From: Actinomyces urinae
Lineage (GTDB): Bacteria > Actinomycetota > Actinomycetes > Actinomycetales > Actinomycetaceae
Assembly (NCBI RefSeq): GCF_900119695.1
Contig: NZ_LT632545.1
Coordinates: forward strand, 1 to 64,000
Direction: 5' to 3'
Length of the DNA: 64,000 bases
The notes beneath the pieces were generated by a model. It saw only the letters and a program-made list of their open reading frames with translations, had not been told where the DNA came from and made no database searches. Below, piece by piece: positions 3,647 to 60,471 of this stretch. A program made the position numbers and the translations under genes. Each line of letters begins with the position of its first letter. Position 1 is the stretch's first letter.

Positions 3647-3848
3647 GGCCATAATCCAGCCTCGTCTCCAACGACCGTGAGGAGAACTGGCAAATGTAGG
3701 GGTAGTTTTCGCCGCTTTGGGTCGGAATACCGATTGGGGTGGTTGCGGTATTCGGTATTCAGAGGGGAAGTGCCGAATCTGAGGTTGGTTTCTGCCAGTT
3801 TGGGTCTGAATACCGTTTTGCAGCTCCCTTCCTTGTATAGGAGTGCCG
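3640..3848 (-). repeat. 83-nt-period degenerate tandem repeat, locus A
   Basis: This is the noncoding space between the convergent genes rmlB and the AspT-like transporter. Read on the minus strand it holds about 2.5 units of the repeat found at 59.45-60.0 kb. The core GACCCAAA (preceded by TATTC) ends at + positions 3716 and 3799, exactly 83 nt apart. The second core (CCTCACGG, seen at 3675-3682, and CCTCTGA at 3765) sits at the same internal offset, 43 nt before GACCCAAA, as in the distant array. No ORF of coding character is present. I see nothing else between 3588 and 3895. Confidence 0.8.
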
Positions 3849-3946: not shown

Positions 3947-5542
3947 TTAGAGGCCGCCGAGTACCTGCGCCACGAGGATCTTACCGATCATCGCGACGGG
4001 GTAGATCAGAGCGTAGCCAAGTGCAACACGCGGGTCCGCGTTGGTACGCGAGTTCGCGAATGCGAGCACCGCCGGCTGGGTTTGTGAGCCGCCGAGGAAA
4101 CCGGCAAGCTGCGTGCCACCCATGTTGAAGATCCATCTCATGACCATGTACAGGCCAACAGCCATAATCGAGGTGACCACCATGCCGAGGATGAGGATAT
4201 TCAGCCAGGAGCCGGATGCAAACGCCTCACCGATCTGGCCACCTGCTACCGTGCCCGCTTGGGCGAGGAAGACGAGCAGACCGAACTCGGAGAGCACCAT
4301 CGCAGCGGTGTAAGGAATAGCGGTGACAACCTTGCCGATACGTCCGATCTTGCCGAAGATCAGACCAACAATGAGCGTGCCGGCCGCAGATCCGATTGAG
4401 AAGTACTCGCCCGATGGGGTGAGGATCGGTAGCTCGCCAAGAACAATGCCGAGCGCCATGCCAAGACCTAGTGCAACCGGGTTGATGTCAGAAAGACCAC
4501 GCGCGGAGTCTCCGAAGAACTTGGTAATCTCACGCATCTTCGAGGTGGGGGCTACAACGCGGACGCGGTCACCCTGCTGAAGCACGAGGCCCGGTTCGCC
4601 AACCATGTCGATGTCACCGCGGCGCACGCGGGAGATAGTTGCGGAGAACTTGTTACCCATGTCGAGGTCTGCAACGGTGCGTCCAGCCAGCTTCGGGTCT
4701 GACACCGTGATGCGACGGAAATCGAGGTAAGAGCGGTCTTCCATTAGGGAGTGTGAAGAGCCGTGACCAAGTTCGGTTGCAACGCGCGCAACTAGTTCGC
4801 GCGGTCCTACAACAGTTACGAGGTCGTCGTGGTTCAGCGAGTCGGACATTACCGGCTTCTTGATGGGGCCGGTTTCGCCGCGCCTGATTCGCGAGAAGGT
4901 TACCTTCTTGCCCATCATTTCGTAGATGTCGCCAACCAGAGGCTTGTCGGAGCGCTCCACGCGGATGGTGCGGTTTGCAAGTGGAGACGGCTTATCAGTG
5001 TCGTTCTTGCCGGCGCGTAGCGCCGCCATAGCTGCGATCATCATTCCGATTACGCCAAACAGGTAGGCAATGGAGTAACCAACGGTTGCAAGGCCGGGGT
5101 CGCCAGATGCCTGTCCGGCGGCTGCCAGTGCCGGCGTGTTAGTGAGTGCGCCAGCAAAAGTACCGGCAACGAGGGCGATGTCCATGTCGAACACATAAAT
5201 GCCGAGTCCGTAGGCAGCTCCTGCAGCAACTATGTAGAGGGCGACAGTGGCCAAGATAGGGCCGAGAGCTGTCTTAATGTTATGGAAGAAGCTCGGGCCA
5301 GAGTTAACACCGATTGCAAATGCAAAAACCGCGAGGCCAAGAACGCCAAACACGCCCGGAATTCGGATTTCTACTCCGAGGGTTTCTGCCCATGCGGATA
5401 CAAAAATCGCTAGGAATAGAACGGCGGCGGCTCCAAGAGACACGCCTTTAAGTTTGATATGTCCAACGAGCATGCCCAGGCCAATCAAGATGAAGAGCAT
5501 GAGGACCGGCTGCTCGGCAAAGAAGGTGAATATGCTTACCAA
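3947..5542 (-). CDS. AspT/YidE-type (aspartate:alanine exchanger family) transporter with TrkA-C domains
   Basis: A 531-aa inner-membrane protein: about five hydrophobic helices (1-165), a central cytoplasmic region (about 190-370) with two TrkA-C/RCK-C-like domains, then a second hydrophobic half (about 370-531). The motif GALTNTPALAAA in the first half and the matching GGSQTQPAVLA region in the second are typical of the AAE family (AspT, YidE, YbjL). AspT exchanges aspartate for alanine; the substrate here cannot be read from the sequence. The start is TTG with AGGAG about 12 nt upstream; no better in-frame start was found. A -10-like TATGGT lies within the 200-nt gap to thrE, so it probably has its own promoter. 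Confidence 0.85.
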   Translation of the reverse strand: MVSIFTFFAEQPVLMLFILIGLGMLVGHIKLKGVSLGAAAVLFLAIFVSAWAETLGVEIRIPGVFGVLGLAVFAFAIGVNSGPSFFHNIKTALGPILATVALYIVAAGAAYGLGIYVFDMDIALVAGTFAGALTNTPALAAAGQASGDPGLATVGYSIAYLFGVIGMMIAAMAALRAGKNDTDKPSPLANRTIRVERSDKPLVGDIYEMMGKKVTFSRIRRGETGPIKKPVMSDSLNHDDLVTVVGPRELVARVATELGHGSSHSLMEDRSYLDFRRITVSDPKLAGRTVADLDMGNKFSATISRVRRGDIDMVGEPGLVLQQGDRVRVVAPTSKMREITKFFGDSARGLSDINPVALGLGMALGIVLGELPILTPSGEYFSIGSAAGTLIVGLIFGKIGRIGKVVTAIPYTAAMVLSEFGLLVFLAQAGTVAGGQIGEAFASGSWLNILILGMVVTSIMAVGLYMVMRWIFNMGGTQLAGFLGGSQTQPAVLAFANSRTNADPRVALGYALIYPVAMIGKILVAQVLGGL

Positions 5543-53627: not shown

Positions 53628-53781
53628 GATGTCCTTTCGCTCGTTCCCATGCTCTCACTATTTTGCGAAGAGTTCCCTCCGTGACGCATTGCGACGTAGC
53701 TTGCGAGGGAGTGCCGTGACCAATCGCACGATAAATCCTGCTTACTTAGCCCGAATACAGTTCCCTTTTTGGCTCATTTTC

Positions 53782-53796
53782 TGGCACAATGGAGCG
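53782..53796 (+). promoter_or_regulatory. rpsP promoter, -10 region shared with rplS
   Basis: TGGCACAATGGAGCG, containing extended -10 TGGCACAAT. The identical 15 bases occur at 56780-56794 ahead of rplS. A leader of roughly 125 nt follows to the rpsP start. The -35 is uncertain (TTCCCT, 18 nt upstream). Confidence 0.65.
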
Positions 53797-53921
53797 TTGT
53801 ACTCGAAGTCTGCGGACCCCTCTCTACCGTAGTTCTTCGCGTCCAGGATTCTAACCACTGTTTGTGTAACCCCCGATGGCGGTTTGAGTCCACCCCAATA
53901 AATCAAGGAGTGACCACTAAA

Positions 53922-54428
53922 GTGGCAGTTCGTATTCGACTAAAGCGCATGGGCAAGGTCCACGCACCGTTCTACCGTGTAGTTGTCGTTGACCAGCGCA
54001 AGAAGCGCGATGGTCGCGTGATTGAAGAGATCGGTACCTACGATCCGACGCGTACCCCGTCGCACATTTCGATTAAGGGCGAGCGTGCTCAGTACTGGCT
54101 CGGTGTCGGTGCTCAGCCGTCCAACCAGGTTCGCAACCTGCTCCGTTTGACCGGTGACCTCGCTGCGCATAAGGGTGTTAAGAACCCGGTTTCGCGCGTG
54201 AAGTACGCTTCTGCGGATGAAGAGGCCGCCGCGAAGGCTATTAAGGCTGCGGAGGAAGAAGCGATCAAGCGTAAGGCAGCTATTGCTGAAGCCAAGCAGA
54301 AGGCAGAGGCTGAGGCCGCTGCTGCTAAGAAGGCTGAGGAAGAAACAGCCGCTGAGGCAGCTGCAGCAGAAGCTGCGGAAGAGGCCCCGGCTGAAGCTGA
54401 AGCCGACGCTGAGGCAGAGGAAGCCTAA
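53922..54428 (+). CDS. rpsP: 30S ribosomal protein S16
   Basis: A 168-aa S16: the conserved domain ([22 protein letters not shown] onward, residues 1-85) plus a C-terminal extension of about 75 residues almost wholly Ala, Glu and Lys. Actinobacterial S16 proteins often carry such extensions; the function is unknown. I use GTG 53922 with AAGGAG upstream because the domain begins there; the open frame runs back to 53769. First gene of rpsP-khpA-rimM-trmD; stop overlaps khpA by one base. Confidence 0.96.
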
Positions 54429-54667: not shown

Positions 54668-54678
54668 TTATTTCGATT

Positions 54679-54713
54679 TTGGGGCGGTGTGGCGCTTGTC
54701 CACACCGCCCCAA
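54679..54713 (+). terminator. Strong hairpin inside the rpsP operon
   Basis: A 14-bp stem (54679-54692 with 54700-54713) with a 7-nt loop, 12 nt after khpA and 32 nt before rimM. No T-run follows, so it may be an RNA-processing or attenuating structure rather than a complete terminator. Confidence 0.55.
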
Positions 54714-54744
54714 GTCATATTTTGAGCTGAAGCGGTGGGTGTTC

Positions 54745-55245
54745 ATGGAACTTTTGGTTGCGGTTGTAGGGCCGGCGCACGCTCTTAAGGGAGAGGTTGC
54801 GCTGGACGTGCGTACGGATTCTCCGCAGGAGCGCTTATTTGAAGGCGCACGGTTTGACGTGGCCTCGCACGGGGTTCTAACGGTGGAGTCGATTCGCGTT
54901 CACAAGGGGCGGATGCTGGTCAAATTTGAAGAGGTGCGCGACAGGACCGACGCGGAAGCGCTTCGTGGAGCTCTATTGTTGATTGACGCTGACGAGGCGC
55001 TGGACGAGGACGACGCTTGGTATCCGCACGAACTGACGGGTTTGAAGGTGCGCACGGTTGAGGGAGAGCCTCGTGGTGTTGTCTCTCGCTTTGTACCCGG
55101 CGCCGCGCAGGACCTGCTGGTGGTGGATTACGACGGCCACGAGGTTTTGGTGCCATTTGTGAAGCAGATCGTGCCTGAGGTACTGCTTGACGAGGGTACT
55201 ATCGTGGTTGATCCGCCGGGCGGCCTCTTTGATGATGAGGAGTGA
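54745..55245 (+). CDS. rimM: Ribosome maturation factor RimM
   Basis: A 166-aa 16S rRNA-processing factor needed for 30S head assembly (binds S19). N-terminal RimM domain (LLVAVVGPAHALKGEVAL), C-terminal PRC-barrel domain (about 90-166) ending VVDPPGGLFD. The start is ATG 54745; the longer frame from 54679 would run through the hairpin. Stop TGA lies 5 nt before the trmD start I prefer. Confidence 0.94.
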   Translation: MELLVAVVGPAHALKGEVALDVRTDSPQERLFEGARFDVASHGVLTVESIRVHKGRMLVKFEEVRDRTDAEALRGALLLIDADEALDEDDAWYPHELTGLKVRTVEGEPRGVVSRFVPGAAQDLLVVDYDGHEVLVPFVKQIVPEVLLDEGTIVVDPPGGLFDDEE

Positions 55246-58865: not shown

Positions 58866-59165
58866 ATGAATCCTGAGATTGAGAATTACGAGAACAACTT
58901 GGAGCTGGATCTGTTCCGCGAGTATCGCGACGTGATCAGCTTGTTTAAGTATGTGGTTGAGTCGGAGCGCCGTTTTTACTTGTGTAATCAGGTGGATTTG
59001 CAGGTGCATCCGGTGGGCAATGACGTGTTTTTTGAGCTGCGGCTTGAGGACGCGTGGGTTTGGGACATTTACCGTTCGTCGCGCTTTGTGAAGTCTGTGC
59101 GTGTGCTGACGTTTAAGGATGTGAATATTGAAGAGCTCTCGAAGTCAGAGCTAGAGCTCCCATAG
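58866..59165 (+). CDS. DUF2469 family protein
   Basis: A 99-aa actinobacteria-specific protein (Mycobacterium Rv2901c type), acidic, with LFREYRDVISLFKYVVESERRFY and the C-terminal VRVLTFKDVNIEEL. Function unknown. Conserved position between rnhB and yraN. ATG with GGGG immediately upstream. Last gene before a terminator. Confidence 0.92.
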   Translation: MNPEIENYENNLELDLFREYRDVISLFKYVVESERRFYLCNQVDLQVHPVGNDVFFELRLEDAWVWDIYRSSRFVKSVRVLTFKDVNIEELSKSELELP

Positions 59166-59247: not shown

Positions 59248-59294
59248 GTGCCTCTTTTGGGCGTGACCTTTTGACCTGCCTAGGTGAGGAGCTT

Positions 59295-59343
59295 TGGTCT
59301 GACTCGATGTAGCGCTATGACCTGACTACGTGTAGCGCTACGT
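59295..59343. repeat. 23-nt direct duplication with a palindromic core
   Basis: TGTAGCGCTA occurs at 59308 and 59331, each preceded by a CTGACT block; the second copy contains the palindrome GTAGCGCTAC. It lies just before the 27-nt repeats. Confidence 0.6.
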
Positions 59344-59362
59344 CCGGCCCTTGAATGTGTCA

Positions 59363-59505
59363 GACCCAAATTGCCCTCCCTACATTCCCGACCCAAACTG
59401 CCCTTCCTGCATTTCTGGCCCAGTTACCGAATCCGACTTTCCGACACAAACTCCCATATCCGTATTCCCGACCTAAACGGCTGTATCCGCATCTCAGATC
59501 TAAAG
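59363..59505 (+). repeat. Degenerate tandem repeat, 27-nt period (about six units)
   Basis: The core ACCCAAA or a variant occurs at 59364, 59391, 59418 (GCCCAGT), 59444 (ACACAAA), 59471 (ACCTAAA) and 59498 (ATCTAAA), spaced 27, 27, 26, 27 and 27 nt. The end merges into the 83-nt repeats. A 110-codon ORF crosses this region but shows no protein-like character. Confidence 0.75.
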
Positions 59506-60010
59506 GGTCGAATTAGGCAGCTCTTTTGGCAGTTTTCCTCACGGTTGTGTTCTGGCCTGGCAACGAAACCGCGATTCAGACCCAAAGTGCCGAATGAGTA
59601 CGCTGTTCTGGCCATTTCCCCTCACGGTTGCGATAACTGTTGCGGGCTAGTTATCGATTCCGACCCAAAATGCCCGAATAAGGGGCGCTTTGTGCCGTTT
59701 TAGGTCTCATTCGTATTCGAGGCCTGATGCGTACTCGGTTTTGTGAGGGGAAGCGTCGGTTTGGGCAGCTGTTATTGCCGCTTCCCCTCACGGTTGTGTT
59801 CTTGCCTGGTGATGAAACAGCGATTCAGACCCAAAGTGTCCATTTAGGTAGCAGTTATAGTCAGTTCCCCTCACAGTAGTGGTGTTTGCGTTGTGCCGCG
59901 TCGGCATTGCGACAGGAAGTGGCCAAAAGAGGCCCGTATTCTGCCACTTCCCCTCACGGTCGTGGTTTGGGCCGGCCCGTCATCCCCCGCAGCAACCGAG
60001 GAACCTGCCC
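59454..60010 (+). repeat. Degenerate tandem repeat, 83-nt period, locus B (about seven units)
   Basis: The core CCTCACGG (or a variant) starts at 59537, 59620, 59703 (degenerate), 59786, 59869 and 59952: every step is exactly 83 nt. A second core, GATTCAGACCCAAAGTG or variant, begins 37 nt after each CCTCACGG start (GACCCAAA at 59579, 59662, 59828; degenerate at 59911). The unit before (from 59454) is more decayed but keeps both offsets. Units 59537 and 59786 are the most alike. The whole 952-nt gap between DUF2469 and yraN contains, besides this array, only the terminator and short duplication noted, and the yraN upstream region (60011-60117), in which I see no clear promoter. Confidence 0.85.
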
Positions 60011-60117
60011 ACCCGGCTTTTCCCCAGCGCTACTGTTCCCCTGGCTGTCCACACCTGCACCCGGTTAGTGGCGAGCTTATTTGCTCGAGGCAACAGGATG
60101 GTGCGCGGGAGGTGTTG

Positions 60118-60471
60118 ATGGGTAGGACACATAGGTTGGGCCAGGTTGGTGAGGATTTGGTGGCGGAATACCTCACCGGCTTGGGCTGGCAGATTTTGGA
60201 CAGGAATTACAGGAGACGGGGCGCGGAGCTCGACATTGTGGCGCGTGATCCGAAGCGGGGAATCGTGTTTGTGGAGGTAAAGACTCGCTCGGTTCGAGGA
60301 GCGGCAACTGCATGGGAGTCGATTACGGAACAGAAGATGCGGTTTTTGCGCCGCGGGGCAGCTGTTTGGTTGTCGGAACATGCGCAGAGCGGCTCCGTGT
60401 GCATGGATGCGGTGGTTGTGAAGGTGAGGGGAAGTTTGGCTGATATTGAGCACCGGAAAGGAGTGTTATGA
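60118..60471 (+). CDS. yraN: YraN/UPF0102 family endonuclease-like protein
   Basis: A 117-aa protein with a Holliday-junction-resolvase/restriction-like core: GEDLVAEYLTGLGWQILDRNYR, then GAELDIVARD and VFVEVKTRS (the D-ExK metal site). Function unproven. I start at ATG 60118 with GGGAGG upstream; the open frame back to 59893 runs through the repeat array and is not credible as coding. Stop overlaps the comM start. Confidence 0.92.
   Translation: MGRTHRLGQVGEDLVAEYLTGLGWQILDRNYRRRGAELDIVARDPKRGIVFVEVKTRSVRGAATAWESITEQKMRFLRRGAAVWLSEHAQSGSVCMDAVVVKVRGSLADIEHRKGVL

Follow-up and report, generated by a model that had tools for sequence, protein, structure and literature searches.

The 64,000-nt window analysed here (the whole stretch of DNA, as distinct from the array within it) contains, between a DUF2469-type gene (58866..59165, + strand) and yraN (60118..60471, + strand, start at 60118), a noncoding array in which the first-pass annotation described seven copies of a repeat with an exact 83-nt period. 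The question raised by this locus is whether such regularity reflects spaced binding sites for a protein, an RNA with repeated modules, or the remains of a mobile or satellite element.

Inverted pairs of sites as the repeating unit

The period itself is confirmed by the autocorrelation of positions 59500–60020, which reaches 0.46, 0.50 and 0.53 at lags 83, 166 and 249 (mean 0.25, sd 0.04), every other lag up to 299 staying at or below 0.35. The copies, ~60–80% alike, have diverged too far for Tandem Repeats Finder to detect the array. As to the number of copies, six rather than seven 83-nt units lie in register (59487 to 59962), the sequence upstream of 59487 being a different, degenerate sub-array of the GACCCAAA core with 26/27-nt spacing, which adjoins the main array (59361..59500, + strand) and is also found in G. 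europaea. Neither is the unit a simple direct repeat; it is an inverted pair of sites. The element comprises 61 nt, in the order CGGTATTCAGACCCAAACTGGC, a ~20-nt linker and GGCAGTTCCCCTCACGGATG, and is followed by a variable spacer of ~22 nt. The two cores noticed in the window array are the two arms of one element, these arms being imperfect inverted copies of one non-palindromic site of ~19 bp (consensus nGATTCAGACCCAAAGTGnC; second arm type GnCACTTCCCCTCACGG). Several second arms read CCCGTCTGAATACCG, and the outer half of these is exactly complementary to that of the first arm. The centres of an inverted pair are ~38 bp apart, and the pairs repeat every ~83 bp.

Five of the six core positions given earlier, 59537, 59620, 59786, 59869 and 59952, indeed carry CCTCACGG-type cores, but that at 59703 is of the other arm type (AGGTCTCATTC), for which the term "clear variant" was generous; the GACCCAAA core is found at 59579, 59662 and 59828. 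Unit 1 (59487..59547, +, 32 bits) is degenerate and consists of B site, linker and A site, an order repeated in unit 2 (59570..59630, +, E=4e-12; B site CGCGATTCAGACCCAAAGTGCC, A site CATTTCCCCTCACGGTTG), unit 5 (59819..59879, +, E=6e-11) and, with a variant B site, unit 6 (59902..59962, +, E=7e-12), where the array ends. In unit 3 (59653..59713, +), the B site is paired with a second arm that is also of the B type (AGGTCTCATTC, opposite strand), whereas the two arms of unit 4 (59736..59796, no strand assigned) both belong to the CCCCTCAC (A) type and form a 13-bp perfect inverted repeat. A short repeat, GCTTTGGTCTGACTGCGTGTAGC, occurs in about four tandem copies upstream of the G. europaea array (L122), and about two diverged copies of it (TAGCGCTA) lie just before the array in the window, at 59293–59345.

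The period is no accident of one locus: the element recurs at 82–84 nt in ~14 other arrays. The search of this and related genomes with a profile of the unit, which had been proposed at the outset, finds ~50 elements in ~15 intergenic arrays of the 1.95-Mb source genome (G000, assigned to the genus Gleimia by ComM), mostly at 82–84 nt spacing, and the array family in four of 11 Gleimia species (G000, G001, which is G. europaea UMB0652, G002 and G010); with a control pattern read backwards, or in shuffled sequence, practically no units are found. With a sequence-only covariance model, 52 matches are obtained in the source genome at E<0.01, all of them at C1 3.7k and 59.5k (both in the window), C2:4–59k and C3:1.623–1.627M. 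The second array in the window consists of unit 1 (3755..3815, −, E=4e-14) and, 83 nt from it, unit 2 (3672..3732, −, E=9e-14). The neighbours of the arrays, named by eye or by Pfam, are housekeeping genes (gatCAB, nagB, galU, mscL, yraN and others), and the gaps between them are divergent, tandem and convergent, with arrays in either orientation; the arrays are therefore not promoter or terminator elements. The site was also met within genes, as one copy inside a kgd-like gene (G000:C3:1623268–1623292) and as repeated IQTQSD codons in a coding low-complexity region of G010 (C4:70857–71885, L085).

The idea that the array is transcribed into an RNA with repeated modules draws on the single-sequence fold of the array, which on each strand is somewhat more stable than that of shuffled sequence (z −2.1 and −2.6), a stability that any inverted repeats would give. 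Against it stand the lack of a consensus structure among 39 elements, of an Rfam match (E<=1) and of a promoter-like site, together with the fact that arrays occur in both orientations and in gaps of all three kinds, convergent, divergent and tandem, and we regard it as extremely improbable. Nor do the arrays have the repeats and spacers of a CRISPR array: the repeats are degenerate rather than near-identical, and the spacers of orthologous arrays can be aligned between two species.

Constraint and helical spacing of the sites

When orthologous arrays of the source genome and G. europaea are compared, the site cores have changed at 39 of 848 positions (4.6%), whereas linkers (150/778, 19.3%) and spacers (165/819, 20.1%) have changed about four times as fast at the same loci (Fisher p=1e-27), the spacer rate equalling the third-codon-position divergence of a nearby gene (21.7%). 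This constraint on the cores is not ascertainment from choosing the elements in the source genome, since over the 848 core positions both species show the same level of mismatch to the consensus (115 and 113). For the cores, this comparison rejects neutral decay and shows the motif to be under constraint. That the arrays are what is left of an ancient, decaying tandem or satellite-like element, as had been offered among other origins, could account for the diverged copies and for the short empty gaps in relatives, but not for cores that evolve so slowly beside their own spacers; for the cores this explanation is already refuted, barring strong biased gene conversion among the 19-bp cores, and as a whole we hold it to be highly improbable. 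As to the earlier impression of point change without length change, the number of indels per substitution is no lower in the arrays (56/606) than in their flanks (66/776), which gives no sign of a length constraint beyond the spacing classes themselves.

For these spacing classes, sites were identified with a weight matrix that gives zero sites in shuffled sequence. After de-duplication, the spacings of direct pairs cluster at ~31, 42, 52, 83 and 125 bp and those of inverted pairs at 38, 48, 80, 121, 132 and 153 bp. The best period among 7–15 bp is 10.4–10.5 bp at each of three levels of de-duplication (n=104, 52 and 24; p<=5e-5 vs a ±5-nt jitter null). With each distinct spacing counted once, the phasing stays for inverted pairs (R=0.73, p=0.015) and is gone for same-strand pairs (R=0.01, n=22), so that shared descent of spacings may explain part of the signal. 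The 10.4–10.5 bp clustering suggests protein binding on one face of the DNA, and cooperative binding there is the simplest reading. Together with the selection on the motif, it supports, at the level of sequence, the first-pass suggestion of binding sites set regularly at close to eight helical turns.

We see about an even chance that the arrays are helically phased binding sites, cooperatively bound by one protein, likely the 368-aa product of the candidate gene discussed below. According to this proposal, ~19-bp non-palindromic sites, set as inverted pairs every ~83 bp, would bring successive sites onto the same helix face, where one sequence-specific protein would bind them cooperatively; the arrays would have spread locally within their chromosome region and would be maintained because the binding matters, either for a local nucleoprotein structure or for a nuclease or recombination function.

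Chromosomal position and distribution among Gleimia

In the source genome, the arrays are limited to three segments at contig ends, all on the right arm of the chromosome. With dnaA at C3:1.2125 Mb and a dif-like site at C3:256072, with which the GC skew roughly agrees, they therefore lie mid-way along that arm, and an ori or ter macrodomain is excluded by position. The three array-bearing contig ends overlap rRNA operons; the arrays may make up a single cluster or two adjacent ones. A low-GC cluster at G000:C2:82472–93933, with ABC transporter and permease genes by eye, has no match in the compared regions of G004 and G010 and is probably an acquired island.

Many motif copies in one chromosomal region recall matS/MatP and maoS/MaoP; matS is a 13-bp target present in 23 repeats over the 800-kb Ter domain (PMC3330122). 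By analogy, the arrays might organise a mid-arm domain through an unrelated architectural protein instead of the nuclease-like candidate. Consistent with this are the helical phasing, the selection and the restriction of the sites to the same chromosome region in those carriers whose position could be checked. However, the domain is neither ori nor ter, the 19-bp sites are densely arrayed rather than isolated, and, unlike matS, they are present in only some species of one genus, G004 having the same genes and zero sites; we consider such an organiser unlikely.

The restricted distribution is borne out by the core pattern with at most one mismatch, which has 23, 46 and 200 matches in G001, G002 and G010 and zero in the seven other Gleimia, as has a reversed-pattern control. 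No member of the array family is found in 28 further genomes from the same family and order, a model search of 395 genomes of the class with stricter filters returns the source genome only, and a distant blastn of the window array against plasmids gives no match. In viral contigs, the core motif has nine single matches, which were read as chance. Nothing relevant was found in the literature on Gleimia repeats.

The gap between the DUF2469 gene and yraN measures 952 bp in the source genome and 981 bp in G001, 108–128 bp in the array-free G003, G004, G007 and G008, and 116 and 185 bp in the carriers G002 and G010, which are without this particular array; gaps at the galU, nagB and gatC loci are likewise tight in array-free congeners. 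In a four-protein tree, G004 groups with G000/G001, and it has kept the surrounding genes with no detectable element. Seven of eight comparable array gaps of the source genome are occupied in the distant carrier G010, compared with 9 of 31 control gaps (p=0.0045; counts taken irrespective of gap length), which makes common ancestry of the arrays with loss in G004 the simpler reading of these sequences. In G010, near-identical arrays flank a 3.8-kb gene segment (C17:50905–51196 and 54676–54967) and a 4.6-kb one (C17:10–683 and 4616–5331), as if they were points of recombination or duplication.

The same distribution bears on the possibility that the arrays are REPIN/BIME-like non-autonomous repeats which a resident enzyme, perhaps the Vsr-like nuclease discussed below, has multiplied by way of local breaks in the DNA and their repair, any host function being incidental. 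The arrays are interspersed intergenic repeats with inverted B/A arms alternating at a regular 82–84 nt, as inverted sites alternate in BIMEs (PMC2817692), and the carriers have a single-copy, vertically kept gene amid the repeats that parallels the enzyme gene of RAYT/REPIN systems (PMC8049555), which the arrays further resemble in being patchy among relatives and possibly tied to one resident enzyme gene. The clean empty gaps in congeners, the complete absence from G004, sister of G000/G001, and the more numerous and more uniform copies of G010 also fit. On the other hand, RAYT (Y1_Tnp, PF01797) is found in none of the 11 Gleimia genomes, with positive controls; the site GATTCAGACCCAAAGTGnC is non-palindromic and without the GT(A/G)G head of REP; and, unlike BIME/REP, the arrays are helically phased and confined to one chromosome region, with core conservation at fixed orthologous loci that would not be expected of idle copies. 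We regard amplification of this kind as conceivable though rather doubtful.

A candidate partner gene and known repeat systems

Returning to cooperatively bound sites as the preferred reading, one gene stands out as carrier-specific in the ~100 kb compared with G004. It is an orphan gene for a 368-aa protein at G000:C2:36059–37165, in the centre of the densest array cluster; of the 12 arrays on C2, 10 are no more than 12 kb away from it, and an array is found ~215 nt upstream of it in both G000 and G010. The gene occupies the syntenic locus in all three carriers checked (G000, G001 and G010) and is missing from it in all five non-carriers checked (G003, G004, G005, G007 and G009; the G003 contig ends 7.7 kb beyond the neighbour). 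The protein is 91% identical to that of G000 in G001 and ~60% in G010, and its dN/dS of ~0.12 indicates purifying selection.

No relative of the protein was found in Pfam, NCBIfam, PADLOC, PDB sequences, plasmids or viruses. In the structure model, the C-terminus (pLDDT mostly 70–90) resembles a PD-(D/E)xK nuclease in layout, the N-terminal half being of very low model confidence (pLDDT<50). By Foldseek, Vsr, DUF559 and homing endonucleases are among the top viral matches (prob 0.9–1.0, E 0.007–0.15), with no significant match in the PDB. The predicted C-terminal fold may be akin to that of Vsr-like (EDxHD) homing endonucleases and DUF559 proteins, from which the candidate differs in its long unassigned N-terminus and in its location outside an intron or intein. 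We hypothesize that the protein binds the arrays, and it is, by inference from the position and distribution of its gene, their most likely partner. Going further, the orphan Vsr/DUF559-like nuclease gene and its own phased site arrays may, as a tentative and less probable proposal, constitute an undescribed two-part system, in which the arrays would have spread mainly around the gene and been kept by selection, and gene and arrays would have been lost together; it could act as a nuclease-based analogue of RAYT/REPIN or as a species-specific organiser of a chromosome domain.

Approximately 20-bp non-palindromic sites repeated at helical spacing are also known from the ends of transposons (IS21, Mu and Tn7) and from iterons. 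The arrays resemble these in their sites and spacing, but differ in forming ~15 dispersed arrays with no transposon or replicon between them. The best match to IS21 IstB (PF01695) in the source genome is the dnaA locus, the others being short and weak. With IstB and RAYT both absent, there is no support for an origin from IS21 ends or REPs through a resident enzyme of these types. The mobile-element origin first suggested, REPIN-like included, is still conceivable, but no Y1/RAYT or IS21 enzyme is present.

The arrays are best read as analogous to, yet distinct from, REPIN/RAYT and matS/MatP, namely as interspersed arrays of putative protein sites, possibly in a new kind of enzyme–repeat partnership. 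Bacterial noncoding repeats are usually difficult to distinguish from junk; in this case, motif constraint, helical phase, regional confinement and a candidate gene can all be read from the sequence, so that the function of such arrays can be tested directly. Were the nuclease-like gene the partner, this would be a repeat–enzyme partnership outside the HUH transposases.

Two minor observations may be added. In the window, a conserved gene at 53769–54428, probably rpsP by its position before trmD, has a C-terminal extension with a 39-nt tandem repeat (54308–54394). Near the candidate locus, a lipoprotein-like gene is single-copy in the source genome (C2:33314–34814) and present as tandem copies in G010 (C17:36308–38791) and G004 (C4:81724–86349), those of G004 coming with a secreted-protein partner gene.
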